64,000 nucleotides of DNA from Burkholderiales bacterium Ga0077544 (GTDB taxonomy: Bacteria > Pseudomonadota > Gammaproteobacteria > Burkholderiales > Burkholderiaceae_D): positions 186,001-250,000 of the forward strand of contig LNEU01000015.1 of assembly GCA_001464355.1 (NCBI GenBank), read 5' to 3'. A program made the translations under genes and the position numbers. Below, piece by piece: positions 33,784 to 49,812 of the stretch (the first letter of the stretch is position 1; every line of letters begins with the position of its first letter). The notes below the pieces were generated by a model, which ran no database searches, was not told where the DNA came from, and worked only from the letters and a program-made list of their open reading frames with translations.

Positions 33784-34039
33784 AATGTTCCCCCCAAAGA
33801 ATCAAAGCCTTATGCCTGCTGACTTGAAGGGATGTGCATGCGTGCGATGCTGTGTGCTTTCCCTGAAGCAAGGAGCAGGATAGATGGGTTATTTATTTCT
33901 TATATGAAAAACAGAATAAACCTAGTGATGTAGTTTTGCATGTGAAATATTGCAAAACAACGAATGAGAATGTGATTTTTTGTGAAATGAAAATAAAATT
34001 TCCTTGTCGCAATAACTTCTTTGAATTGCAATGAAAAAA

Positions 34040-34068
34040 GCCTGCATTTCTTATTTGAAAATGCAGGC
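34040..34068 (-). terminator. Rho-independent terminator on the minus strand, end of moaA-mobA-moeA operon
   Basis: gcctgcattt/aaatgcaggc 10-bp arms, T-run on the minus strand. Confidence 0.85.
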
Positions 34069-34111
34069 TTGTCAGCATGTTGTTAAAAATTAAACATCAC
34101 GGTTTGTAAGA

Positions 34112-34186
34112 TCAGTTTGATTTTTTTCTCAGCGGGCAATTTTTGCACTGCTTTTTGCTGTCGCAACATTTCTTTTTCTTGCTCAT
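34112..34186 (-). CDS. Candidate 24-aa Cys/Lys-rich micropeptide downstream of moeA
   Basis: MSKKKKCCDSKKQCKNCPLRKKSN*; upstream aggaacctccgtg; same strand, 46 nt after moeA stop, before the operon terminator. Confidence 0.6.
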   Translation of the reverse strand: MSKKKKCCDSKKQCKNCPLRKKSN

Positions 34187-34232
34187 CACGGAGGTTCCTA
34201 TTGCAGGCTGGTGTTGCTGGCTGCTATGGCAC

Positions 34233-35663
34233 TCAGGTCAAACCGTCAAACAGAATCACATCAACCAGATCGCCCGCTTTGATTTCGGCTCTGTCGTGTT
34301 CCAGCACCACCATGCAGTTGGCCTCTGACATTGAGCGCAATACACCCGAACCTTGCGAGCCGGTGATGCGGACTTCCTGTATGCCGTCGCTGTTCCTGCT
34401 TAAAATGCCGCGCTGATATTCAGTACGGCCCGGGCGTTTGCGGATGGCAGCTTGTGATACGACACGCATTAAAGGTGGTGCTTCTACAGTCGATGCGCCC
34501 ATCATGTGCAGCAAAGCCTGGCGCGCGAGGAAGTAGAAAGTCACCATCACCGCAACCGGATTGCCAGGCAAACCGAACAGATAAGCTTCCTTGCCGTTCG
34601 ATGCAATTTTTCCGAAAGCCATGGGGCGGCCGGGACGCATACCGATTTTCCAGAAGCCGACGTCGCCCAGTTGCGCCATCATTTGCTTGGTGTAGTCGGC
34701 TTCACCGACGGAGACGCCGCCAGACGTGATGATGGCATCGGCATTTTCGCAAGCGGTGCGGAATGCTGCTTCCAATACATCCGGATCGTCCTTGATGACG
34801 CCCATGTCGACAACGTCGCAACCGAGGCGCGTCAACATGCCGTACAAAGTGTAGCGATTGCTGTCGTAGACGCAACCTTCATCCAGCGTTTCGCCTATGG
34901 AGCGTAACTCGTCGCCTGTGGAGAAAAAGGCAACCCGCAACCGACGCTGAACAGGGATTTCTCCTATACCTAGCGAAGCCAATAATCCGAGGTCGGCAGG
35001 GCGCAGAATTTTGCCCTTTTGTAGCGCGGCTGTACCGGCTTTGAGGTCTTCACCTTTGAGGCGGCGATTGTCGCCGGTCTTCACGGCACCTGCAGGAATA
35101 GTCATGCCGGTGTCACTGGCATCGCGTACAAATTCTTGTGGAATCACGGTGTCGCATTGTGCGGGCATGACAGCACCGGTCATGATGCGTACACATTCTC
35201 CCTTGTTGACTGCGCCGTCGTAGGCGCGGCCAGCGTAAGCGGTACCTATGACTTTCAGTTTCACATCCTGCTCTTTGCTTAGGTCGCTGCCATGCAAGGC
35301 ATAGCCGTCCATCGCTGAATTGTCATGCGAAGGCACGTTGATTGGTGACACGATATCAACTGCCAGCACCCGATCCAGTGCGCTCCTCAAGGCGATTTTT
35401 TCTACTGCATTGATAGGCTGGATGAACTGGCGAATGATTGCTTGCGCATCGGCCACCGGTAATGCATCCGGATCGTAGTCGGACAGGCAGCTGATTACAT
35501 TGGCGAGCGTGTTGCGCGATGCATTCATTGCGCTGTCATCGGACGGGTTATTGTTAGCCATAGCGTTGGAAGTTTCATTATTTGTATCGTTGAGTTCGCC
35601 GTTGTCCAAGGCATCATCCAAATCGGACATGTCGCGCAGGAGGTGCGAATAGCGGAGATTCAT
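34233..35663 (-). CDS. moeA: Molybdopterin molybdenumtransferase
   Basis: SAMDGYAL, GDELRSIGETL, VYDSNRYTL, ITSGGVSVGEADY, LFGLPGNPVAVMVTF. Confidence 0.95.
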   Translation of the reverse strand: MNLRYSHLLRDMSDLDDALDNGELNDTNNETSNAMANNNPSDDSAMNASRNTLANVISCLSDYDPDALPVADAQAIIRQFIQPINAVEKIALRSALDRVLAVDIVSPINVPSHDNSAMDGYALHGSDLSKEQDVKLKVIGTAYAGRAYDGAVNKGECVRIMTGAVMPAQCDTVIPQEFVRDASDTGMTIPAGAVKTGDNRRLKGEDLKAGTAALQKGKILRPADLGLLASLGIGEIPVQRRLRVAFFSTGDELRSIGETLDEGCVYDSNRYTLYGMLTRLGCDVVDMGVIKDDPDVLEAAFRTACENADAIITSGGVSVGEADYTKQMMAQLGDVGFWKIGMRPGRPMAFGKIASNGKEAYLFGLPGNPVAVMVTFYFLARQALLHMMGASTVEAPPLMRVVSQAAIRKRPGRTEYQRGILSRNSDGIQEVRITGSQGSGVLRSMSEANCMVVLEHDRAEIKAGDLVDVILFDGLT

Positions 35664-36259
35664 GACGCAGTCGCTTCGTATTTTCTCAAGTCATCCAGCG
35701 TGTTGATATTGCGGAATGCATCTTCATCGTCGAAGTGAACTTCCGCGACTGTCAACGACGCATACCACGCGTCGAACTTGCGTCCGCCTTCCTGCAGGTA
35801 CAAGGTCAGGTGCGGCAATAGCGAGGCTTTGGCCAGGCAAAAGACCGGATGTGCTTGCCGTGATTCACCTTCACCGGTGACGGCAACGGCGATGTCGGCA
35901 TTTTTCTCTTCCAATCCTGAAGCCAAACGTGCGACCAAATCCTTGGGTAAAAAAGGCGAGTCGCATGGTGCGGTGACCAGATAATCGGTTTCGCAATGAA
36001 CCATGCCGGTTTGCAAACCCGCCAGCGGCCCGGCAAAACCTTGCATTTCATCCTGCCAGACGGGCACGCCGAAACCTTCATACGGTGCGATATTCTGATT
36101 CGCATTGATCATCACGTAGCCGACTTGCGGCGACAGCCGCATCAATACGTGCAAAGCCATAGGCGCGTCGCGGAACAATTGCAAACCTTTGTCTATGGTA
36201 CCCATGCGAGTACCGCGTCCGCCTGCAAGTATGAGTCCGGTAATTTGACTGGTATCCAT
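35660..36259 (-). CDS. mobA: Molybdenum cofactor guanylyltransferase
   Basis: GLILAGGRGTRMGTIDKGLQ, VTAPCDSPFLP. Confidence 0.94.
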   Translation of the reverse strand: MDTSQITGLILAGGRGTRMGTIDKGLQLFRDAPMALHVLMRLSPQVGYVMINANQNIAPYEGFGVPVWQDEMQGFAGPLAGLQTGMVHCETDYLVTAPCDSPFLPKDLVARLASGLEEKNADIAVAVTGEGESRQAHPVFCLAKASLLPHLTLYLQEGGRKFDAWYASLTVAEVHFDDEDAFRNINTLDDLRKYEATAS

Positions 36260-36302: not shown

Positions 36303-37427
36303 CTAGCCGCCGATGTACGACATCTCGACCTTGCGGTCAGCATTCAAACCGTCGGTATTCGCCGTGCGCAATTCAGAATAGCGATCGCCGCGTGCGCGCC
36401 AGATATGGGCGATGACGGTTGAAATTTCTTCATCCGTTTTGTCGCTACGCATCAGTGCGCGCAAATCATGGCCGCCGGTGGCGAACAGACAGGTATAAAG
36501 CTTGCCTTCGGTCGATAGGCGTGCGCGGCTGCAGTCGCTGCAAAATGCCTGGGTCACGCTGGAGATCACGCCAATTTCGCCGCCGCCATCGCCGTTCTTA
36601 TCAACGTAGCGCCAGCGTCCTGCAGTTTCGCCAACGTAATTCGCTGCGATGGCTTCCAGTGGCATTTCTGCATGGATGCGGCGTACGACTTCTGATGATG
36701 GAATCACTTCATCCATCTTCCAGCCGTTCGATGCACCGACATCCATGTATTCGATAAAGCGCAGGATGTAAGGCGTGTCTTTGAAATGGCGCGCCATCGG
36801 CACGATTTCCTGATCGTTCATGCCGCCCTTGACGACCATATTGATCTTGATCGGACCGAGTCCGACGCGGTGCGCGGCTTCTATGCCCTCAAGCACGTCG
36901 GAGACAGAAAAATCGACGTCGTTCATTTGCTTGAATACTGTGTCGTCGAGCGCATCGAGCGAAACCGTGACGCGCTTCAGGCCGGCATCTTTCAGTGCCT
37001 GCGCCTTGCGTGCCAACAATGAGCCATTAGTGGTCAGAGTCAGATCCAGTTCGCGGCCGTCCGGCGTGCGTAATGCGCTGAGCATTTCGATCAGCTTTTC
37101 CACATTCTTGCGCAGTAGCGGCTCGCCACCGGTCAGTCGAATTTTTTCCACGCCGTGCGCGACGAACAAGGATGCGATGCGGGTGATTTCTTCAAATGAC
37201 AGTAAAGATGTTTGCGGCAGGAAGGCGTAATCCTTGTCGAACACTTCTTTCGGCATGCAATAGACGCAGCGGAAATTGCAGCGATCGGTGATCGAGATGC
37301 GCAAATCCTGCAATGGCCGTGCAAGCGTATCCGCCAGCAAACCGGTTGGTGCTTCCAGGCGTGCCGGGATGACCGGTATCTTGTTCAGATAACGCAGGTC
37401 TGCGAGCGGAATGATTTTTTCAGTCAT
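36303..37427 (-). CDS. moaA: GTP 3',8-cyclase
   Basis: [29 protein letters not shown]-terminal [22 protein letters not shown]. Confidence 0.97.
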
Positions 37428-37643
37428 GGCGAAAGTCGTATTAGTACCGACATTGTAAGTGTTTCCCACCCAGACTGTCGAATTGACGCCGGTGATTTAT
37501 CTGGCTGTGCACTCTTGTTAGATGGAACACAAGCGTCGGTTTCGCAAGAGAAAGCATGAAAAATATGACAATCTTTGCATGCAAGTCATCAGCGAGTCGC
37601 ATCCAATTAGTTTAGACTTGCGCTATAAAATTCAGGAGAACCA

Positions 37644-38732
37644 ATGAGTATCACGATAGAAGCAGTCAAGGCAGCATTGTCCACAGTCATCGACCCGAAT
37701 ACAGGCAAGGATTTAGTCAGCAGCCGTTCCGCAAAAAATATCCAGATCAATGGGGCCAACGTCATATTCGACGTGGAGCTGGGCTATCCGGCGAAAAGCC
37801 AGATCGACGGCATACGCAAGGCGTCGATCGCTGCAGTACGCACAATTGAAGGCATAGGTAGCGCGACAGCTAACGTGCATTCGGTGATCGTCGCGCACTC
37901 AGCGCAACGCGGCGTCAAGTTAATGGCCAACGTTAAAAATATTATTGCTGTCGCGTCTGGCAAGGGCGGCGTCGGCAAATCGACTACTTCAGTCAATCTG
38001 GCACTGGCATTGGCAGCAGAAGGCGCGCAAGTCGGTATTCTCGATGCAGATATTTATGGTCCATCGCAACCGATGATGATGGGTATTTCCGGTCGTCCCG
38101 AAAGCGCCGACGGCAAAACCATGGAGCCGATGGAGAACTACGGTCTGCAGGTTTCCAGCATCGGTTTCATGATCGATCCGGATGAACCTATGGTGTGGCG
38201 CGGCCCGATTGTGACGCAAGCATTGACGCAGTTGCTGGAACAAACCAACTGGCGCGATCTGGATTACCTGATCGTTGATATGCCGCCAGGTACCGGTGAT
38301 ATTCAATTGACGATGTCGCAAAAAGTACCAGTTACTGGCGCTGTGATCGTGACAACGCCGCAAGATATCGCGCTGTTGGACGCACGTAAAGGCTTGAAAA
38401 TGTTTGAGAAAGTCGGCATCCCGATTCTCGGCATAGTCGAAAACATGAGCACGCACATCTGTTCCAACTGCGGTCATGCCGAAGCGATTTTCGGTGAAGG
38501 CGGCGGCGAAAAGATGTGCGGCGAATATGGCGTCGATTTCCTCGGTGCATTGCCTTTGACGATGTCGATACGTCAGCAAGCAGATTCCGGAAAGCCGACA
38601 GTGGTCGCCGATCCGGATGGTCCGATTGCGGTGATTTACAAACAGATCGCACGCAAAATTGCGATCAAGGTTGCAGAAAAAGCCAAAGACATGTCGTCCA
38701 AGTTCCCGACCATCGTGGTTAAGAACGACTAA
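37644..38732 (+). CDS. apbC: Mrp/ApbC Fe-S carrier P-loop ATPase
   Basis: MIP18-like N-terminus, VASGKGGVGKSTTSVNLALAL, ICSNCGH. Confidence 0.95.
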   Translation: MSITIEAVKAALSTVIDPNTGKDLVSSRSAKNIQINGANVIFDVELGYPAKSQIDGIRKASIAAVRTIEGIGSATANVHSVIVAHSAQRGVKLMANVKNIIAVASGKGGVGKSTTSVNLALALAAEGAQVGILDADIYGPSQPMMMGISGRPESADGKTMEPMENYGLQVSSIGFMIDPDEPMVWRGPIVTQALTQLLEQTNWRDLDYLIVDMPPGTGDIQLTMSQKVPVTGAVIVTTPQDIALLDARKGLKMFEKVGIPILGIVENMSTHICSNCGHAEAIFGEGGGEKMCGEYGVDFLGALPLTMSIRQQADSGKPTVVADPDGPIAVIYKQIARKIAIKVAEKAKDMSSKFPTIVVKND

Positions 38733-38820
38733 TGTTGCTTGCTTGATGTATCCGGCATAGTCGGGTATGGTTGCCTTAGAGTATTAGTTTTTGCCAGTAA
38801 GTAAAGTTGGAAGTGTTAAG

Positions 38821-38851
38821 GCGTGAGCAGTTTCTGCTCACGCAGTTTTTT
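38821..38851 (+). terminator. Rho-independent terminator after apbC
   Basis: gcgtgagcag-ttt-ctgctcacgc then agtttttt. Confidence 0.9.
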
Positions 38852-38979
38852 CATGATTTTCCTTCATCGTTTGCAAACGCGATTTTCAGAGACAAAATCC
38901 GATTTGCAGTTTCGGCGCACAATAGTAAAAGCGTCGCTATCGTTACAACGACAGGCAGAATATGCCGGAATGAGGAGAC

Positions 38980-39495
38980 ATGGAGACAGAAGCAATCCGC
39001 ATTGGCGTCATCATGCAATGCACGCCTTTATCAAGTCGTTGGCAGCCGTTTCAATGGCAGCCGATCGAAATCGTCGGCCAGGTATCGGAGCAGAGCGCAC
39101 CGCGTTGCCTGCGTAATGATCCATCCGATACACGCTGGCTGTTCAGCGGTATTGACGTCACCTTGTGCAGCAGCGAGGCGGAAGGCTATTTCCTTAATAT
39201 CAGTGCGCCTACGCCGTGCTGGTTCATCATGTGGCGCATCGAAGATATCGATGGTGTCGAACTGGCAGTTCCCAAATCAGTTACCTTGTCGTACAACGAA
39301 GCCGCACGCCTGATGGATGGCGGCGAACGGGTGGATACCTTGCCTGCTTCTACTGAAATCGTGGAACGCCTGAGCGAGTTCACACGCGACTATTATCATC
39401 CCGAGCCTAAACGCAAACACAAGAAGCCATCGTTTGAAGGCGGTGAAGGCGTCGACAAGATGGCGCGCGCCGAAGGTGAGAAAAATGGCAGCTGA
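38980..39495 (+). CDS. DUF3305 protein (formate dehydrogenase locus)
   Basis: IRIGVIMQCTPLSSRWQPFQWQPIEIVGQ; position upstream of DUF3306 and fdh genes. Confidence 0.82.
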   Translation: METEAIRIGVIMQCTPLSSRWQPFQWQPIEIVGQVSEQSAPRCLRNDPSDTRWLFSGIDVTLCSSEAEGYFLNISAPTPCWFIMWRIEDIDGVELAVPKSVTLSYNEAARLMDGGERVDTLPASTEIVERLSEFTRDYYHPEPKRKHKKPSFEGGEGVDKMARAEGEKNGS

Positions 39496-40138
39496 AGATT
39501 TTTTCGCGCGTTGGTCGAAGAAGAAGACCGATGCTTCAACCACGGTTGATGTAGCGGACGCGTCGACCGAAATTTCTGCGCACCCCTTGAACGAGGCGCG
39601 TGCAGAAAACCTAGTCAAGGCGAATCCTGATGCGGCAGTCAAACCCGTGCCTACGCAGGAAGACGTCGACCAGCTTACGCATGATTCCGATTATTCAGTC
39701 TTCATGTCGCAAGGCGTGGATGAGTCGGTCAAGCGTTCTGCGATGAAAAAATTATTTACCGATCCCCACTTCAACATCATGGATGGCCTGGACATCTACA
39801 TCGATGACTACAATAAATTTGAACCGATTTCGCCAGCCTTGCTGGCGTCGTTGAACCACGCGAAGGCCTTGCTCGATCCCTTGTCCCAACTCAAGACGCC
39901 TTTAATGCGTTTACTGGAAAAAATACCTAAAGAGCCTGAGCAGGGTGCGCTCGAGAGTTTTTCTGCTGCAGACGGGGAGCCGACTTCGCTGCAGGATATT
40001 GCAATCACTGAAGATGAGCAAAAAGAAGGCTATGCTGAACCGCAGGAATCTCACAAAGACGGCAACTTGAAGGGGGCAAGCGAAAAAGAGCCCGAGATAA
40101 GAAAAGCAGACGCAATGCGTAACGTTGACGACGTTTAA
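39485..40138 (+). CDS. DUF3306 protein (formate dehydrogenase locus)
   Basis: MAAEDFFARWSKKK; DVDQLTHDSDYSVFMSQGVDESVKRSAMKKLFTDPHFNIMDGLDIYIDDY. Confidence 0.83.
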   Translation: MAAEDFFARWSKKKTDASTTVDVADASTEISAHPLNEARAENLVKANPDAAVKPVPTQEDVDQLTHDSDYSVFMSQGVDESVKRSAMKKLFTDPHFNIMDGLDIYIDDYNKFEPISPALLASLNHAKALLDPLSQLKTPLMRLLEKIPKEPEQGALESFSAADGEPTSLQDIAITEDEQKEGYAEPQESHKDGNLKGASEKEPEIRKADAMRNVDDV

Positions 40139-40173
40139 GACATTTTCCCCAGCCAGCATCTACAAGCCAGCCA

Positions 40174-42267
40174 ATGACCACAGAATTCAAAATATGTAAT
40201 TGCAACCGAACCATGCCGCTTGACGCTGCCGCAGGTGCGCAGCTCGGCACGGCACTCGGAACCTCAGCGCTTCCCGTTGCCACTGAACTATGTCGACGTG
40301 AAGTCGGTTCTTATCTGGCTTCGCTCGACGGGGTAGACGATGTCGTTGTCGCCTGTACGCAAGAGCGCGGTTTGTTTGCCGAACTTGCGCAACAGAAAAA
40401 TGCGGTCGCGCCTTTACGTTTCGTGAATATTCGCGAGACAGGCGGTTGGGGCGCGCAAGCGAGAAGCTCTCTACCTAAAATGGCAGCGCTGCTGGCCGCC
40501 GCTGCACTGCCGGATCCTGAACCTGTTCCCACGGTTGATTATCAGTCTGCCGGACATGTATTGATTATCGGCCCGTCAGATCGCGCATTGTCGTGGGCGC
40601 AGCGCCTAGGTTCGCAACTTGACGTCAGTGTTTTGCTGACTGACAGCGTCGGTGGCGAGATGCTGCAGGATCGCGAGTTTCCCGTTTTTTCCGGGAAGCA
40701 GGTTGCCATCTCAGGCTGGCTGGGTGCATTCACCGTGAAATGGCAGCAGGCCAACCCTATTGATCTGGAAACATGTACGCGTTGTAACGCCTGTATAGAA
40801 GTCTGTCCGGAAAACGCAATCGACCTGACTTACCAGATTGACCTGAATAAATGCACATCGCATCGCGATTGCGTGAAGGCGTGCGGGACGATAGGGGCGA
40901 TCGACTTCACGCGTATTGCGACTGAGCGCAGCAGTGAATTCGATTTGATTTTCGATTTATCCGATGTTCCCTTGCTGACCCTACATCAGCCGCCGCAAGG
41001 TTATTTCGCTACCGGTGCATTGGCAGAAAAGCAGATGGATCAGGCATTCAAGCTGACCCAAATGGTGGGTGAATTCAGCAAGCCGAAATTTTTTCTCTAC
41101 AAGGAAAAATTGTGCGCGCATGGACGCAACGGCAAGACCGGTTGCACATCCTGCATTGATGTTTGCTCGGCAGAAGCGGTCAGCCATAACGGCAATCAGA
41201 TCAAGGTCAACCCCAATTTATGCGTCGGTTGCGGCGCATGCACGACAGTTTGTCCATCGGGTGCGCTGGCTTACGCCTATCCGCGCGTGACCGATATCGG
41301 CATGCGTGTAAAAACAATGCTGAACACGTATGCAAAAGCTGGGGGCACCCAGCCTATGCTGTTGTTGCATAACCAGGAGCAGGGCGCAGCACTAGTCAGC
41401 CAGCTCGGGCGCCAGGCGCAGGCACATGGGAAATTGCAGGGAATGCCCGCACGCATCATGCCGATCGACCTTCATCATGCTGCATCCACCGGCATCGATA
41501 TCTGGCTAACTGCGCTTGCCTATGGCGCTACGCATGTGGCGATTCTGACGACGGCACAAGATGCGCCGCAATATGTCAGCGCTTTGACGCAGCAGATTGA
41601 TATCGCCCAAACTATATTGAGCGGCCTCGGTTATGAAGGCGTGCATTTGTCGCTGATTCAGGCGACGACTGCGCTTCAGCTTGATGCTGAATTGGCGGCA
41701 ATTTTGCCTGCACAAGTCCCGGCACAGCGCGCCTTGTTCAATGTTGCTGCAGACAAACGCAGCACGCTGGAATTGGCGATTGATCATCTGAAAACGCATG
41801 CGCCGTTGACAGTCGATGAGATTTCTTTGCCGGCTGGCGCGCCATACGGTGTGGTCATGGTGAATCAGGACGCATGTACTTTGTGTATGTCTTGCGTAGG
41901 TGCTTGTCCCGAATCCGCACTAACTGACAATGCAAACCTGCCGCAACTACGCTTTATTGAAAAGAACTGCGTGCAATGCGGCTTGTGCGAGAAAACCTGT
42001 CCCGAAGATGCTATTACGCTGGCGCCCCGTCTGTTGCTTACCGGTGCAGCAAAAGAGCTGCAAGTTTTGCATGAGGCAGAGCCGTTTCATTGCATCAGTT
42101 GCCACAAACCGTTTGGTACAGCCAAGATGATTGAAAACATGGTCAGCAAGCTATCTTTGCATGGTGCATTTTCCGGCAATATCGATAGACTCAAAATGTG
42201 CTCCGATTGCCGCGTAGTCGACATGATGGCGAACAAGCAGGAATCGTCTATCGGTGATTTGAAATGA
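40174..42267 (+). CDS. Multi-[4Fe-4S] protein of the formate dehydrogenase locus
   Basis: CTRCNACIEVCPENAI, CVGCGACTTVCPSGAL, CTLCMSCVGACPESAL, CVQCGLCEKTCPEDAI plus further Cys clusters. Confidence 0.88.
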   Translation: MTTEFKICNCNRTMPLDAAAGAQLGTALGTSALPVATELCRREVGSYLASLDGVDDVVVACTQERGLFAELAQQKNAVAPLRFVNIRETGGWGAQARSSLPKMAALLAAAALPDPEPVPTVDYQSAGHVLIIGPSDRALSWAQRLGSQLDVSVLLTDSVGGEMLQDREFPVFSGKQVAISGWLGAFTVKWQQANPIDLETCTRCNACIEVCPENAIDLTYQIDLNKCTSHRDCVKACGTIGAIDFTRIATERSSEFDLIFDLSDVPLLTLHQPPQGYFATGALAEKQMDQAFKLTQMVGEFSKPKFFLYKEKLCAHGRNGKTGCTSCIDVCSAEAVSHNGNQIKVNPNLCVGCGACTTVCPSGALAYAYPRVTDIGMRVKTMLNTYAKAGGTQPMLLLHNQEQGAALVSQLGRQAQAHGKLQGMPARIMPIDLHHAASTGIDIWLTALAYGATHVAILTTAQDAPQYVSALTQQIDIAQTILSGLGYEGVHLSLIQATTALQLDAELAAILPAQVPAQRALFNVAADKRSTLELAIDHLKTHAPLTVDEISLPAGAPYGVVMVNQDACTLCMSCVGACPESALTDNANLPQLRFIEKNCVQCGLCEKTCPEDAITLAPRLLLTGAAKELQVLHEAEPFHCISCHKPFGTAKMIENMVSKLSLHGAFSGNIDRLKMCSDCRVVDMMANKQESSIGDLK

Positions 42268-42327
42268 GTTGCAATAGACGGTTTTGATGCCTTGTTTTAA
42301 TTGAATAGAAAGGTCGGACAGAATCAC

Positions 42328-42942
42328 ATGACAAGTGCTCAATCAATCAAGTTTGAATCGCAGGATCAAGGCGAAGAAACCGCGCGCGCGGATGTATACG
42401 GGCTGCTCGCTACACTGCTATATACACCGCCACCGCAAGCCTTGCTGGACACGATAGGCAGCGCAACGGTGCAGGGGAGTAGTGTGCTGGAGCATGCATG
42501 GGCAGATCTGGTCACAGCGTGCAAAACGGCTCAGCAGGAAGGCGTACGCGAAGAATATGAATTGCTCTTTGTCGGTGTCGGCAAGCCGGAAGTAATGCTG
42601 TACGGCTCTTTCTATCTTTCCGGCTTCTTGATGGAAAAACCGCTTGCCGAATTACGTACTGATCTGTCCTTGCTCGGTTTGCAGCGTTCGGATGATGTCG
42701 TCGAAAGTGAAGATCATCTGGCATCGCTATGCGAGGTAATGCGGTACTTGATTGCGTCTGATGATGTCGTGCATGCCAATCTGGCTGCTCAGGAAAAATT
42801 TTTCAATACACACATGCGCGGATGGGTGCTTGATTGCTGTAACGCGTTGGAAGCGAGTGGCAATGCCCGCTTTTACAAGTTGGTGGCGCGTTTGGCGCAC
42901 GTGTTTTTTGAAGTGGAAATGCAGGCTTTCGATATGGTCTAG
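42328..42942 (+). CDS. TorD/DmsD-like molybdoenzyme chaperone
   Basis: REEYELLFVGVGKPEVMLYGSFYLSGFLMEKPLAELR. Confidence 0.83.
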   Translation: MTSAQSIKFESQDQGEETARADVYGLLATLLYTPPPQALLDTIGSATVQGSSVLEHAWADLVTACKTAQQEGVREEYELLFVGVGKPEVMLYGSFYLSGFLMEKPLAELRTDLSLLGLQRSDDVVESEDHLASLCEVMRYLIASDDVVHANLAAQEKFFNTHMRGWVLDCCNALEASGNARFYKLVARLAHVFFEVEMQAFDMV

Positions 42943-43013
42943 TTAATTGACGGGCCATTAGCAATTGAGCGTTTCATTCAACTGGCGATGAATTTTTTTC
43001 ATCTGAAATTAAT

Positions 43014-43027
43014 TTGATCCAAATCAG
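43014..43027. promoter_or_regulatory. Candidate FNR/ANR-type site upstream of the fdh genes
   Basis: TTGATccaaATCAG, 9/10 match to TTGAT-N4-ATCAA; 114 bp before ATG at 43141. Confidence 0.6.
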
Positions 43028-43140
43028 TGCGTTTCTTTATTATTAGTCGTGCAAGTTGCTAAAAGGTATGCTAACTTGCATACATAGTGCATAGGAATTA
43101 AAAAGCATATTACGTCCTGACCCATTTACAGGAGACGATC

Positions 43141-43341
43141 ATGTCCGAGCAATCCCGCATTCCCCGACGTACTTTCTTCGCAGGTTTAGGCTTGGTCGCC
43201 GCCGCTGGCGTCGCAGCCAAGCTTGCTCCCGCATCCGCTACATCCGCGTTGGAAAACGTACTGTCCCCGCAAGAGCCTGAAGGCGACAGCTACCGTTTGA
43301 CAGAGCACATCAAAAAATACTACCGCACCACTACAATTTAA
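43141..43341 (+). CDS. Small TAT-signal protein of the formate dehydrogenase region
   Basis: MSEQSRIPRRTFFAGLGLVAAAGVAAKLAPASA; 66 aa; directly upstream of fdhA. Confidence 0.82.
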   Translation: MSEQSRIPRRTFFAGLGLVAAAGVAAKLAPASATSALENVLSPQEPEGDSYRLTEHIKKYYRTTTI

Positions 43342-43356
43342 TAACGAGGTGACGTC

Positions 43357-46323
43357 ATGCTGTTAACTCGCAAAAGCAACGCTGCAGAGCGTTCTCCTGC
43401 CCGCTTCTCATCCAGCCTTGCCGATAGTCTGTCGCGCGCCTTGCCGACAATGGACAGGCGCGGCTTTCTCAAGCGTTCCGGTATCGGTATCGGCGCCGGG
43501 ATTGCAGCAGCGCAACTGGGTCTGATTCAGAAAGCAAAAGCCGCAGAGGGTGGAAAAGCTGCGGCAGGTGGTAGCAAGATTGAAGTCAAACGCACTATTT
43601 GTACTCATTGTTCGGTCGGTTGCGCATCGGATGCGATAGTCGAAAATGGCGTATGGGTCAGGCAAGAACCGGTGTTCGACTCGCCGATCAATCTTGGTGC
43701 GCATTGCGCCAAGGGTGCCGCATTGCGTGAGCATGGTCACGGAGAATACCGGCTGAAATATCCGATGAAATTAGTGAATGGCAAATACCAGCGTATTAGC
43801 TGGGATCAGGCGATGAATGAAATCACCGCCAAGATGCTGGATATCAAGAAAGTCAGTGGCCCGGATTCTGTTTTCTTCGTAGGCTCCTCCAAACACAATA
43901 ATGAGCAAGCCGCGCTACTGCGCAAATTCGTTTCCTTCTTCGGCACCAATAATACCGATCATCAGGCCCGTATCTGTCACTCGACCACTGTTGCTGGCGT
44001 AGCCAATACCTGGGGTTACGGAGCAATGACGAATAGTTACAACGACATGCAGAATTCGAAAGCTGCGTTGTATATCGGCTCGAATGCTGCAGAAGCACAT
44101 CCGGTTTCCATGCTGCACATGCTGCATGCTAAGGAAACCGGCACCAAAATGATTGTCGTGGATCCGCGCTATACGCGTACTGCAGCAAAAGCCGACCAAT
44201 ACATACGCATACGCTCAGGTTCTGATATCCCATTCCTGTGGGGCGTGCTGTATCACATCTTCAAAAACGGCTGGGAAGACAAGCAGTATATTCATGACCG
44301 CGTCTATGGCATGGAAAAAGTCAGAGACGAAGTCATGAAATGGACGCCGGAAAAGGTAGAAGAAGCCTGCGGCGTACCAGAAGCAGAAGTCTATAAAGCA
44401 GCAGAAACGATGGCAAAAAATCGACCATCGACTATCGTATGGTGCATGGGGCAGACGCAACACTCTATCGGTAACGCGATGGTGCGTGCATCGTGCATTC
44501 TGCAACTGGCCTTGGGTAATGTCGGTAAATCCGGCGGCGGCACGAATATTTTCCGTGGTCACGATAATGTACAAGGCGCGACAGACGTCGGCCCTAACCC
44601 TGATTCTTTGCCTGGCTATTACGGCTTGGCAACCGGTTCATGGAAGCACTGGTGTGCAGTGTGGGGTGTTGATTACGAATGGGTGAAAAAGCAATACGCT
44701 TCGCAAGCCATGATGGAAAAATCCGGCACTACCGTATCGCGCTGGGTTGATGCAGTTCTAGAAAAGAGCGAGCACATCGATCAGGAAAATACCGTCAAGG
44801 CAATGCTGTTCTGGGGGCATGCTCCAAACTCGCAAACACGCGGCCTCGATATGAAAAAGGCCTTCGATAAACTCGATTTGCTGGTCGTGATTGATCCTTA
44901 CCCATCCGCAACGGCAGCGATGGCCGCCATGAAAGTCGATGGTCAGGAGCTCAATCCGAATCGTGCCGTTTATCTATTGCCTGCGGCAACTCAATTTGAA
45001 ACATCCGGTTCGGTGACGGCTTCCAATCGTTCCTTGCAATGGCGCGAAAAAGTGATTGAGCCATTGTTCGAATCGCGTACCGATCACATGATCATGTATC
45101 AGATGGCGCAAAAACTTGGTTTTGGTAAAGAACTCGTTGCCAAGATCAAACTGGTTCCGGGTAAGGGCGGCATGATGGAGCCGGAACCGGAATCGATGCT
45201 GGAAGAGATCAATCGCGGCACATGGACTATCGGCTATACCGGGCAGTCGCCTATGCGTCTGAAGGCGCACATGCGCAACATGAATTTGTTCGATGTGAAA
45301 ACGCTGAAATGCAAGGGCGGTAAGGATGCGGTCAGCGGTTACGATATGACCGGCGACTATTTCGGTTTGCCATGGCCTTGTTACGGCACACCGGAATTGA
45401 AACATCCCGGTTCGCCCAATCTTTATGACACGTCCAAAACGATGATGGATGGCGGCGGAAATTTCCGCGCCAATTTCGGTGTGGAAAAAGACGGCGTCAG
45501 TCTGTTGGCTGAAGACGGCTCGCACAGCCTGGGTTCCGACATCACCACCGGTTATCCGGAGTTCGATCACATTCTGTTGAAAAAACTAGGCTGGTGGGAC
45601 GACCTTACCGATCTAGAGAAAAAAGCTGCAGAAGGCAAGAACTGGAAGACAGATCTTTCCGGTGGGATTCAGCGTGTGACGATGCAAGTGCATGGTGTAC
45701 ATCCATGGGGTAACGCGAAGGCTCGTGCCGTGGTATGGAATTTTCCTGATCCGGTACCGCTGCATCGTGAACCTATCTACGGTACACGTCCGGATTTGAC
45801 TGCCAAATATCCGACGCACGAGGACAAGAAAGGTTTCTGGCGCATGCCGACTTTGTACAAGTCGTTGCAAGACAAAAATATTGAAACCAAGCTATATGAA
45901 AAATTCCCGATCATCCTTACTTCGGGACGTTTGGTCGAGTACGAAGGCGGGGGCGAAGAAACACGTTCCAATCCTTGGCTGGCCGAATTGCAGCAAGAGA
46001 ACTTTGTCGAAATCAATCCAAAAGCTGCAAGCGATCGCGGCATACGCAATGGTGATTTCGTGATCGTCAGCACGCCGACTGGCGCGCGCATCAAGGTCAA
46101 GGCAATGGTGACCATGCGGGTGGGTGAAGATACTGCTTTCATACCGTTCCATTTCTCTGGCTGGTGGCAGGGAAAAGACATGATTGATTCGTATCCGGAA
46201 GGCGCAGCTCCTATCGTGCGTGGTGAAGCAGTCAACACGGCGACGACTTACGGCTATGACTCGGTCACGATGATGCAGGAAAGCAAGACGACTATTTGCA
46301 ATATAGAAAAGGCGGCAGCGTGA
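43357..46323 (+). CDS. fdhA: Formate dehydrogenase catalytic alpha subunit (TAT-exported, Cys form)
   Basis: TAT motif DRRGFLKRSG; CTHCSVGCASDAIVENG Fe-S; ARICHSTTVAGVANTWGYGAMTNS. Confidence 0.96.
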   Translation: MLLTRKSNAAERSPARFSSSLADSLSRALPTMDRRGFLKRSGIGIGAGIAAAQLGLIQKAKAAEGGKAAAGGSKIEVKRTICTHCSVGCASDAIVENGVWVRQEPVFDSPINLGAHCAKGAALREHGHGEYRLKYPMKLVNGKYQRISWDQAMNEITAKMLDIKKVSGPDSVFFVGSSKHNNEQAALLRKFVSFFGTNNTDHQARICHSTTVAGVANTWGYGAMTNSYNDMQNSKAALYIGSNAAEAHPVSMLHMLHAKETGTKMIVVDPRYTRTAAKADQYIRIRSGSDIPFLWGVLYHIFKNGWEDKQYIHDRVYGMEKVRDEVMKWTPEKVEEACGVPEAEVYKAAETMAKNRPSTIVWCMGQTQHSIGNAMVRASCILQLALGNVGKSGGGTNIFRGHDNVQGATDVGPNPDSLPGYYGLATGSWKHWCAVWGVDYEWVKKQYASQAMMEKSGTTVSRWVDAVLEKSEHIDQENTVKAMLFWGHAPNSQTRGLDMKKAFDKLDLLVVIDPYPSATAAMAAMKVDGQELNPNRAVYLLPAATQFETSGSVTASNRSLQWREKVIEPLFESRTDHMIMYQMAQKLGFGKELVAKIKLVPGKGGMMEPEPESMLEEINRGTWTIGYTGQSPMRLKAHMRNMNLFDVKTLKCKGGKDAVSGYDMTGDYFGLPWPCYGTPELKHPGSPNLYDTSKTMMDGGGNFRANFGVEKDGVSLLAEDGSHSLGSDITTGYPEFDHILLKKLGWWDDLTDLEKKAAEGKNWKTDLSGGIQRVTMQVHGVHPWGNAKARAVVWNFPDPVPLHREPIYGTRPDLTAKYPTHEDKKGFWRMPTLYKSLQDKNIETKLYEKFPIILTSGRLVEYEGGGEETRSNPWLAELQQENFVEINPKAASDRGIRNGDFVIVSTPTGARIKVKAMVTMRVGEDTAFIPFHFSGWWQGKDMIDSYPEGAAPIVRGEAVNTATTYGYDSVTMMQESKTTICNIEKAAA

Positions 46324-46386
46324 TTATCTGCAGGAAACGAAAGGCAAACCGTTGAACGTGGATAAAACAGCTAAGGAGACATCAAA

Positions 46387-47016
46387 ATGGCACGAATGAA
46401 ATTCATCTGCGATGCAGAGCGCTGTATCGAATGTAATGGTTGCGTGACCGCCTGCAAGAACGAGCATGAAGTGCCGTGGGGCGTAAATCGCCGCCGCGTG
46501 GTCACTATCAATGACGGCTTGGTGGGGCAGGAAAAATCGATTTCGGTCGCCTGTATGCATTGTTCCGATGCGCCATGCATGGCAGTCTGCCCGGTCGATT
46601 GCTTCTATCGCACCGACGAAGGTGTGGTCTTGCATGACAAGGATATCTGCATAGGCTGCGGTTACTGTTCTTATGCCTGTCCGTTCGGTGCACCACAATT
46701 TCCTTCCAACGGCACGTTTGGCTTGCGCGGAAAAATGGACAAGTGCACATTCTGTGCCGGTGGCCCCGAAGACAACGGCTCGAAAGCAGAGTTTGAAAAA
46801 TACGGTCGTAACCGATTGGCTGAAGGCAAGTTGCCGGCCTGCGCGGAAATGTGCTCGACGAAGGCTTTGCTGGGTGGCGATGGCGATGTGATTGCCGATA
46901 TCTTCCGCGCTCGCGTTCTGCGTCGTGGCAAGGGCAGTGAAGTCTGGGGTTGGGGTACGGCTTACGGTAAGGCGCCAAATCCGGAGGCTAAGGCGCCGGT
47001 GGAGAAAAAATCATGA
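46387..47016 (+). CDS. fdhB: Formate dehydrogenase Fe-S beta subunit
   Basis: CIECNGCVTACKNEHEVPWG, CMHCSDAPCMAVCPVDCF, CIGCGYCSYACPFGAP, CTFCAGG. Confidence 0.94.
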   Translation: MARMKFICDAERCIECNGCVTACKNEHEVPWGVNRRRVVTINDGLVGQEKSISVACMHCSDAPCMAVCPVDCFYRTDEGVVLHDKDICIGCGYCSYACPFGAPQFPSNGTFGLRGKMDKCTFCAGGPEDNGSKAEFEKYGRNRLAEGKLPACAEMCSTKALLGGDGDVIADIFRARVLRRGKGSEVWGWGTAYGKAPNPEAKAPVEKKS

Positions 47017-47240
47017 TGCGCGCACTGTTGATCTCATTAGCTGCAATCGCGATGGTCGGTTGCAGCGAGAAGAGCCAGTCGCAAGCCGATGCACGTGATT
47101 CAGGCGATGTGGCCCCTTACAAAGGCGCAGCGAACGATCCTTATGTTATCAAAGGCTGGACCGCTGGCAATAAGACCGAATGGGATACGCAAATGCGTAA
47201 CCGTGCTCAATTGCAGAACGAATACGTGAAAACCAATTGA
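47013..47240 (+). CDS. Small predicted lipoprotein in the fdh operon
   Basis: MMRALLISLAAIAMVGCSEKSQ lipobox; ATGA overlap with fdhB stop. Confidence 0.78.
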   Translation: MMRALLISLAAIAMVGCSEKSQSQADARDSGDVAPYKGAANDPYVIKGWTAGNKTEWDTQMRNRAQLQNEYVKTN

Positions 47241-47262
47241 CGCGTTCGCGAGGAGAATAATC

Positions 47263-48417
47263 ATGAATACATGGTTCGCCAAACTCGCCATAGGTTTGTC
47301 GCTTGTTTTTGCGGCACATGGCGTTGCGCTGGCCCAGTCGAATGAGCCTGTCGTCACCAATAAAACGGAAGCAACAGCACCGCCGGCTGTGCAGAATATG
47401 TCGAATATTCAATCCGACGATATCCTGTACATGAAGCAAAATCAGGTTGAACGTACGCAGGTTCAACCTGGGAATCTTGCGCCGGTTTATCGCCAAATCA
47501 AAGAGGGCGGGGAGCATTATTCCAGCCTGCCAGCACTGGAATCCGGTGTATTGATCCAGCCTAAAGCTCAATTTCCCGGCCAGGCACGTGCGACCACGGC
47601 CGGTGAAGCTTGGCGTCAATACCGCAATGGACCACTGATGACTTATGGCGGCTGGTTGATCATTGTTGCTGTTGTCGGGATTGCAGCATTTTACTTTGCG
47701 GTTGGTACCATCAAATTAAAAAACGGCCGTACTGGTCGCTTGATCGAGCGCTTTACCTCCTTCGAGCGCATCTCGCACTGGACGGTTGCCATCAGTTTTC
47801 TGACTTTGGCATTGACCGGGCTGATCATGTTGTTCGGTAAATATGTCGTCTTGCCGGTATTCGGGCACACTGCTTTTGGCTGGCTCGCGTATGCATGCAA
47901 GAACGTGCACAATTTTGTCGGCCCGGTGTTTACCGTAGCGCTGATCGTCATGTTTGCGATTTTCGTCAAGGATAACTTCCCGGCCAAAGCCGACTGGCAA
48001 TGGCTGAAAAAACTGGGTGGTGCACGTGGCCACGCGAGTGCCGGACGTTTCAATGCGGGTGAAAAATTGTGGTTTTGGGGCGGACTGGTCTTTCTGGGCT
48101 TGATCGTCAGTGCATCAGGTTTTGTGCTGGATATGCTGGTGCCAGGTATTCTTTACACGCGCGCCAATATGCAAATCGCCAACATTATTCATCTGGTGGC
48201 TGCCGTACTGGTATTCAGCGCATCGCTGGCCCATATCTACATCGGTACGCTGGGGATGGAAGGTGCTTATGAGGCAATGTCAACCGGTTATGTCGACGAT
48301 GCGTGGGCCAAGGAGCATCACGATATCTGGTATCAGGATATTGAAAGCGGCAAAGTGCCACGTATTCGTAGTGAAAAGAGTGCAGATAAACTCGGCATCC
48401 CGGCCAAGGCTGTCTAA
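47263..48417 (+). CDS. fdhC: Formate dehydrogenase gamma subunit, cytochrome b556, with N-terminal extension
   Basis: RFTSFERISHWTVAISFLTLALTGLIMLFGK, HNFVGPVF, NIIHLVAAVLVFSASLAHIYIGTLGMEGAYEAM. Confidence 0.92.
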   Translation: MNTWFAKLAIGLSLVFAAHGVALAQSNEPVVTNKTEATAPPAVQNMSNIQSDDILYMKQNQVERTQVQPGNLAPVYRQIKEGGEHYSSLPALESGVLIQPKAQFPGQARATTAGEAWRQYRNGPLMTYGGWLIIVAVVGIAAFYFAVGTIKLKNGRTGRLIERFTSFERISHWTVAISFLTLALTGLIMLFGKYVVLPVFGHTAFGWLAYACKNVHNFVGPVFTVALIVMFAIFVKDNFPAKADWQWLKKLGGARGHASAGRFNAGEKLWFWGGLVFLGLIVSASGFVLDMLVPGILYTRANMQIANIIHLVAAVLVFSASLAHIYIGTLGMEGAYEAMSTGYVDDAWAKEHHDIWYQDIESGKVPRIRSEKSADKLGIPAKAV

Positions 48418-48427
48418 GGAGACATAC

Positions 48428-48754
48428 ATGAACAAGTTACTGATTACATTGATGGGCTTGATGGTCATGAGTGTGGCTTCCGCAAAACTGCCACCCTTGC
48501 GCGATGAAGCCAAAGCCAAAGCCGATGAAGCCAAGAACAAGACAGCTTGGAGCGACAAAGTCGCTGCTTACCAGTTATGCCTGGCTCAGGATAAGGTCGC
48601 TGCAACCTACCTGAAACAGAAAGACAAACCAAAACCTGCGGTTGAAGTCCCTGCATGCACTAATCCAGGACCGTATGTGGCGTTGCAGATTGCTACGACG
48701 ACGGTTGGTGTGGCAGATGCGAAACCGGTGCCTGCGGCCGGTGCGAAAAAATAA
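48428..48754 (+). CDS. Small predicted periplasmic protein in the fdh operon
   Basis: Signal-like MNKLLITLMGLMVMSVASAKLPPLRDEAKAKADEAKNKTAW; start preceded by aaggagacatac. Confidence 0.8.
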   Translation: MNKLLITLMGLMVMSVASAKLPPLRDEAKAKADEAKNKTAWSDKVAAYQLCLAQDKVAATYLKQKDKPKPAVEVPACTNPGPYVALQIATTTVGVADAKPVPAAGAKK

Positions 48755-48966
48755 GCTGATTTGATCAGCCTGGGCAATCTGCCAATCTGACGGTGGATTG
48801 GCTTAGAGTGATGAGCTCTAAGCCCCTCTTGCCGTTATAATCCCTGCTGTGCCAAGAAGAAATGCAATGTCTTGCGACATCTGCTTCTTGTTGCGCGCCA
48901 CGCATCATGTAAATACATGAATCCGATAGTGAACAAGGCTGTTAACCTTGTCCAAAATGAGTTGCC

Positions 48967-49812
48967 ATGTCGTATCGTCCAGAATTTACCGCCACGTCTA
49001 TCAAGTTGACGTATGACGTCAATGCCGTCAATGAAAGTACGCAGGTTTCGACGATTGAGATTCCTGCCGAACGCCCATTGACGGTGTATGTCGATGACCG
49101 TGAACTGGTAACGTTGATGACCTTGGGCGCAGCACCGGAAGCGCTCACGCTCGGTTATCTGCGCAATCAGCGGTTAGTGCAGGCTATAGAAGAAATCGTT
49201 TCCATCCATGTGGATTGGGATAAGCATGCCGTGTCGGTAACGACGCGTAGCGGCATCGAGAATATTGAGGCGCGTACGGCCAAACGCGTGGTGACCACAG
49301 GCTGCGGTCAGGGCACGATGTTCGGTGGTTTGATGGATGAAGTTGATACGATTGTCCTGTCACCAGACGCAAGATTGAAACAATCGACGCTGTATAAAAT
49401 CGTCAATAAAATCCGCACGCAGGATTCAGTCTATGCAAAAGCCGGTTCCGTGCATGGTTGTGGCTTGTTTTCATCCGAAGGCGAACTGCTGTATTTCATT
49501 GAAGATGTGGGTCGTCACAATGCGGTCGATGCGATCGCAGGCATCATGTGGCTGGAAAATATCAGCGGTGCCGACAAGGTGTTTTACACGACCGGCAGGC
49601 TGACATCCGAGATGGTGATCAAGGGCGCGCAGATGGGTATGCCATTCCTGATTTCGCGTTCGGGCACGACGCAAATGGGCCATTTTGTGGCAGAAAAAGT
49701 CAATATGACTTTGCTGGCGCGCTGCACCGGCAAGCATTTTTTGCTGGTAACAGGCAAGGAGCGCATGGTCTATGAACCGGAATTGCTGGATATTCCACTG
49801 CACGTGGCATGA
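48967..49812 (+). CDS. fdhD: FdhD-family formate dehydrogenase accessory sulfurtransferase (CGQG in place of CxxC)
   Basis: ERPLTVYVDDRELVTLMTLG, VVTTGCGQGTMFGG, VHGCGLFSSEGELLYFIEDVGRHNAVDAIAG, GRLTSEMV. Confidence 0.93.
   Translation: MSYRPEFTATSIKLTYDVNAVNESTQVSTIEIPAERPLTVYVDDRELVTLMTLGAAPEALTLGYLRNQRLVQAIEEIVSIHVDWDKHAVSVTTRSGIENIEARTAKRVVTTGCGQGTMFGGLMDEVDTIVLSPDARLKQSTLYKIVNKIRTQDSVYAKAGSVHGCGLFSSEGELLYFIEDVGRHNAVDAIAGIMWLENISGADKVFYTTGRLTSEMVIKGAQMGMPFLISRSGTTQMGHFVAEKVNMTLLARCTGKHFLLVTGKERMVYEPELLDIPLHVA

Follow-up and report, generated by a model that had tools for sequence, protein, structure and literature searches.

A 24-residue four-cysteine peptide encoded behind moeA in a Burkholderiales bacterium and its probable relatives at iron-linked actinobacterial loci

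Results

A very small gene ends the moaA–mobA–moeA transcription unit

The minus strand of the window (the whole stretch of 64,000 nucleotides that was analysed) carries a set of molybdenum cofactor (Moco) genes, the last of which is followed by a very short ORF and a terminator:

34038–34070, minus strand: intrinsic terminator with a 13-pair stem and a T tail, lying 3′ of the peptide gene
34112–34186, minus strand: Cys4 micropeptide gene (CC-x5-C-x2-CP), stop codon included, identified by its translation, five congener orthologues, the codon pattern and an HMM built from actinobacterial homologues only
34193–34199, minus strand: AGGAACC, Shine-Dalgarno-like by sequence, with AGGA (34199–34196) 9 nt before the ATG
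34233–35663, minus strand: moeA (Pfam and NCBIfam), directly upstream of the peptide gene in the host transcription unit
35660–36259, minus strand: mobA (Pfam and NCBIfam, TIGR02665)
36303–37469, minus strand: moaA (Pfam and NCBIfam, TIGR02666)

The exact translation of 34112–34186 on the minus strand is MSKKKKCCDSKKQCKNCPLRKKSN*, a peptide of 24 residues consisting essentially of a Cys loop with basic ends, in which six residues follow the CP. The preliminary description of this DNA had reported the same ORF, and its reading of the surroundings holds as well: the gap between the moeA stop (ending at 34233) and the peptide ATG (34186) is 46 nt, the Shine-Dalgarno-like aggaacc is present, Pfam and NCBIfam agree with the naming of moaA, mobA and moeA, of whose unit the peptide gene is the last, and a terminator does lie 3′ of the peptide, at 34070–34038 rather than at 34040–34068. 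No Pfam match above the cut-off and no NCBIfam match was obtained for the peptide, and an Rfam search of the region returned no match. The window gene has neither an iron box nor a ferritin neighbour; Fur boxes at the betaproteobacterial copies did not exceed background, and none lies near the window gene. Divergent from the Moco genes, a formate dehydrogenase locus occupies 37644–49812 on the plus strand. It comprises an Mrp/NUBPL-type P-loop ATPase, DUF3305 and DUF3306 proteins, an Fe-S protein, a TorD-like protein, formate dehydrogenase subunits and an FdhD-like protein (Mrp, DUF3305 and DUF3306 assigned by profile, the others read from the sequence).

The reading frame is conserved in Herminiimonas

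Tblastn in relatives, which had been proposed together with a check of moeA synteny, returned orthologues in five congeners (G010, G006, G012, G007 and G008), all immediately following moeA in the same orientation and preceded by purine-rich, Shine-Dalgarno-like stretches, e.g. aaaggaggacgacATG in G008. The consensus of the Herminiimonas orthologues is MSKKKCCKSKKPCKDCPRNKKKK; M, KKK, CC, S, KK, C, K and CP are invariant, and the spacing CC-x5-C-x2-CP is unchanged. Within codons 1–18 of the six orthologues, codon positions 1, 2 and 3 hold 2, 1 and 11 variable sites, respectively, and each pair of orthologues differs by 2–7 synonymous versus 0–3 non-synonymous codons. The flanking regions diverge freely, which, together with the codon pattern, argues for purifying selection on a protein; because the orthologues hold the same position behind moeA in five other genomes, chance is a poor explanation for the ORF. 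A frame and cysteines shared by relatives were among the things on which the preliminary description had let its Cys/Lys-rich micropeptide stand or fall. The frame is conserved with a third-position bias and all four cysteines are invariant across the orthologues. Judged by its sequence, the window ORF is thus a genuine conserved coding gene.

A survey of 246 genomes from the host's family gave clear matches in Herminiimonas alone, where 6 of 13 genomes carry the gene. The carriers are nested among non-carriers in the moeA tree, at least three changes being needed, so that the most parsimonious history is an ancestral gene lost more than once. Several of the peptide-less genomes have a terminator-like inverted repeat close after the moeA stop, as judged by eye.

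The Cys loop recurs in a family of basic microproteins

The window peptide contains the core K-C-C-x5-C-K-x-C-P, for which genome contigs were scanned by a degenerate-codon search. About 69 of the 80 loci among the matches listed carried small basic ORFs of about 30–90 residues (e.g. KKKCCRSKPRCKRCPVV...). Their hosts, among the same matches, were Mycolicibacterium, Pseudonocardiaceae, Nocardioidaceae, Kribbella, Geodermatophilus, Corynebacterium and Thermoleophilia, with short forms in Dechloromonas, Azonexus, Rubrivivax and Herminiimonas. The family, mostly present as one copy per genome, was found in 56 of 101 genomes of the family of a Nocardioides isolate, in 36 of 101 genomes of the order of a thermoleophilian MAG and in 9 of 247 genomes spread over the phylum; it is common in Actinobacteria and sporadic in Betaproteobacteria. 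Among 300 genomes of the host's order, E values below 1e-8 were reached only in Herminiimonas and one other genus, in which the gene lies near tsaD and is flanked on the opposite side by nirS or a tpx–cupin pair (tpx was identified by its Redoxin domain, the other three by sequence). In Rhodocyclaceae, tsaD is the neighbour of the family member.

In 27 aligned members, the window peptide included, the columns K, C, C, C, K, C and P are invariant. The homologues outrun the window peptide by 20–40 residues, and the window peptide does not have the helical extension with which the actinobacterial members end. This extension is also missing from certain short members in Actinobacteria (e.g. L132), so that it is not required for membership. 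For a Mycolicibacterium member, AlphaFold2 predicted two helices after a Cys loop of moderate order (mean pLDDT 80), and a fold search with this model gave no match. Family members had no match in Pfam, NCBIfam or the PDB, the latter having been searched by sequence and by fold without any significant result, and no mention of the family was found in the open-licence literature, searched by motif and by topic. When 399 Pseudomonadota genomes were scanned with a loose pattern, nothing but chance matches or one unconfirmed lead appeared besides the window, and none of 23 pattern matches in viral contigs was shaped like the family.

Whether the window peptide shares descent with the actinobacterial proteins depends on about 12 aligned residues. 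In a six-frame search of the window with the HMM from actinobacterial homologues only, the window ORF was the top match (E 1.5e-4, genome-scaled). The peptide scored 20.7 bits; among 10,000 shuffles that preserved the composition of two of the peptides, none exceeded 12.3 bits. Some betaproteobacterial forms scored weakly with the same HMM (E 0.052 for G006, 2.9 for G008). Convergence, in which the real Herminiimonas peptide would have an origin separate from that of the actinobacterial family, would fit the shortness of the motif, the patchy occurrence in Betaproteobacteria and the missing C-terminal part, and evidence on iron would then not transfer to the Herminiimonas peptide. The rank of the window ORF, far above the shuffles, and intermediates in Dechloromonas and Rubrivivax argue against it, and we consider it quite unlikely. 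Shared ancestry, which would rest on a short motif, is thus preferred, and among the basic Cys4 microproteins, an unnamed family, the 24-residue window form appears to be the smallest.

Two further observations concern the edges of the family. The short member from Rubrivivax gelatinosus (KCCRSKPRCKDCP; L181:103–231, minus strand) resembles the actinobacterial consensus more closely than does the Herminiimonas form. In an uncultured member of the Bacilli, a different Lys-rich ORF contains KCCMKYANCKLCPWNGKGRC (L120:7274–7311, minus strand) and possibly represents a separate CC..C..CP family; this ORF and the match in G036 (L044/L077) are regarded as unproven look-alikes.

Iron boxes and ferritin genes accompany the actinobacterial members

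The iron-dependent regulators DtxR and IdeR recognize a palindrome with the consensus TTAGGTTAGGCTAACCTAA. Palindromes of this type (at least 13 of 19 matches) were found upstream of the Cys4 gene in 34 of 61 loci, whereas the rate in the 1505 background windows was 0.2%. The symmetric core AGGTNAGNCTNACCT provides the stronger test, given the likeness of TAGGCT to a −10 element: with one mismatch at most, it lies upstream of 26 of the 61 actinobacterial homologues and in none of the 1505 windows of the same loci. Motifs with altered spacing or reversed showed no excess upstream of these homologues. In a further sample from one family, 20 of 28 loci had an iron box with no more than two mismatches. 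The loci are interrelated, and these counts are therefore not independent events. The box usually lies a few tens of nucleotides upstream of the peptide start and at least 100 nt from the start of the divergent typA, and that it belongs to the peptide gene is further argued by Kribbella, where the upstream gene is co-directional. Near-perfect palindromes precede the Cys4 gene in L144, L182, L125, L150, L165 and L302. In Mycolicibacterium, the gene adjoins typA and has no iron box. Among the matches listed, typA/bipA is divergent from the Cys4 gene at about 38 loci (L109–L188, from Pseudonocardiaceae and mycobacteria), with or without an iron box.

In two further searches, the neighbour of the Cys4 gene encoded a ferritin (PF00210) at 22 of 28 loci and at 12 of 24 loci, respectively; some of these loci may overlap the first locus set. 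None of 67 control loci, mostly proteobacterial, had a ferritin neighbour. The ferritin gene is mostly divergent; in L294, L315, L336, L343 and L132 it lies just downstream on the same strand. Recurrence of one partner in several gene orders argues for a functional tie between the two genes. In the thermoleophilian order, the ferritin linkage occurs largely without an iron box. An iron tie of the family in Actinobacteria is thus evident from DtxR-type boxes and ferritin neighbours, and the actinobacterial Cys4 gene is, on the evidence of these motifs, likely to be an unlisted member of iron regulons.

In Herminiimonas, the peptide co-occurs with a Dps paralogue and not with formate dehydrogenase

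All 13 Herminiimonas genomes encode a bacterioferritin-type protein of the ferritin family. One Dps miniferritin paralogue, located between miaB and miaA (G000:C22:51664–52077; L348:2162–2680; counterparts in L349–L353), is present in all six peptide carriers and in none of the seven non-carriers; other ferritin-family paralogues of the genus did not track the peptide. This co-occurrence is suggestive only, as it is confounded by phylogeny, following the same tree pattern in 13 related genomes.

The preliminary description had placed the peptide in a Moco and formate dehydrogenase context. All six Herminiimonas copies indeed come after moeA, within the transcription unit, as would be expected of a Moco or formate dehydrogenase accessory. 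However, this synteny is limited to one genus, homologues elsewhere are distant from Moco genes and instead adjoin ferritin, typA, tsaD or tpx, all seven congeners without the peptide retain moeA and formate dehydrogenase, and the alpha subunit of the latter is absent from three of the six peptide-bearing genomes. Across the 13 genomes, formate dehydrogenase thus shows no association with the peptide, which lends the implied role no support. An accessory function of this kind is very improbable; iron handling is more likely for the peptide than helping to make the molybdenum cofactor, and its position behind moeA is a genus-specific accident of inheritance that provides no evidence of Moco function.

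Discussion

The four invariant cysteines suggest binding of a metal or an Fe-S cluster. Our best reading of the peptide, which we hold with about even confidence, is an iron-handling Cys4 microprotein that would bind metal and contact ferritin; its role may possibly be that of a Bfd-like ferritin partner. The most likely mechanism would have the four cysteines coordinate a single Fe-S cluster or metal ion and the Lys/Arg arms attach the peptide to a ferritin or Dps cage as the acidic partner, where it would help iron in or out of the cage under iron shortage. In Herminiimonas, the place as last cistron of the moaA–mobA–moeA unit would supply the promoter. We infer both the contact with ferritin or Dps and the carry-over of the role to the 24-residue betaproteobacterial form.

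Other functions have to be weighed against iron handling with ferritin contact. A metallothionein-like buffer or chaperone for Zn, Cu or Fe that never contacts ferritin would agree with four cysteines within 12 residues, the Lys-rich composition, the very small size and the iron-box control in Actinobacteria, but the adjacency to ferritin in several gene orders would then need a separate cause, and with four cysteines only and no CxC repeats the peptide makes a rather unlikely buffer. Its strong basic charge might instead serve a zinc-knuckle protein whose basic arms and Cys4 site bind rRNA, tRNA or DNA. The divergent typA/bipA at some 38 of the matches listed and tsaD in Rhodocyclaceae would suit such a ribosome or RNA binder, as would the sole echo in the PDB sequence search, bL36, which was not significant (E 0.21). 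The iron boxes and the ferritin linkage speak against an RNA binder, and typA and the peptide gene, being divergent, are not co-transcribed; we regard it as unlikely.

Polycysteine leader ORFs are known in mycobacteria, and the Cys codons of the window gene stand shortly before a terminator, as they would in a Cys-responsive leader peptide controlling that terminator and the downstream HDOD gene. Conservation extends to residues other than Cys, however, the next gene in G006 and G008 is not a co-directional HDOD gene, and the homologues carry 20–40 more residues, so that a leader peptide is scarcely credible. The attenuator idea was rejected on the basis of downstream gene order and amino-acid conservation.

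Among known systems, Bfd adopts a [2Fe-2S] fold and spaces its four cysteines as C-x-C-x(about 32)-C-x2-C. The actinobacterial relatives of the window peptide resemble it in being small, iron-regulated Cys4 proteins encoded beside ferritin-type genes, and in their suggested role in ferritin iron flow; they differ in that CC-x5-C-x2-CP is contained in 12 residues, and neither the window peptide nor its relatives matched a Bfd profile in Pfam or NCBIfam. With DUF5522 (PF17653), the window peptide shares a weak match at the CC...C..CP end of the profile, which covers only profile positions 30–45 and, at 13.6 bits, stays below the cut-off of 25; the peptide is not a member, and nine of its relatives had no match to this profile. 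Like bL36 and other small zinc ribbons, the peptide is tiny and basic with a four-ligand metal site, but the spacing differs and those proteins lack the Cys-Cys pair. A short length and a high cysteine content also link the peptide to metallothioneins and small Cys-rich metal buffers, from which its high basicity sets it apart as well.

More specifically, and tentatively, the undescribed, DtxR-controlled Cys4 family may be a dedicated partner of ferritin or Dps in Actinobacteria and some Betaproteobacteria, with a Bfd-like role exerted through a different, minimal Cys-Cys site, the window gene being its smallest natural form; we think this possible but doubtful. To our knowledge, how iron leaves non-heme ferritins in bacteria without Bfd is an open question, for which a mostly single-copy, iron-box-controlled Cys4 microprotein encoded beside ferritin is a directly testable candidate. 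The Herminiimonas form indicates that a core of only 24 residues, well below the length limit of the first-stage ORF listing, can be kept under selection.
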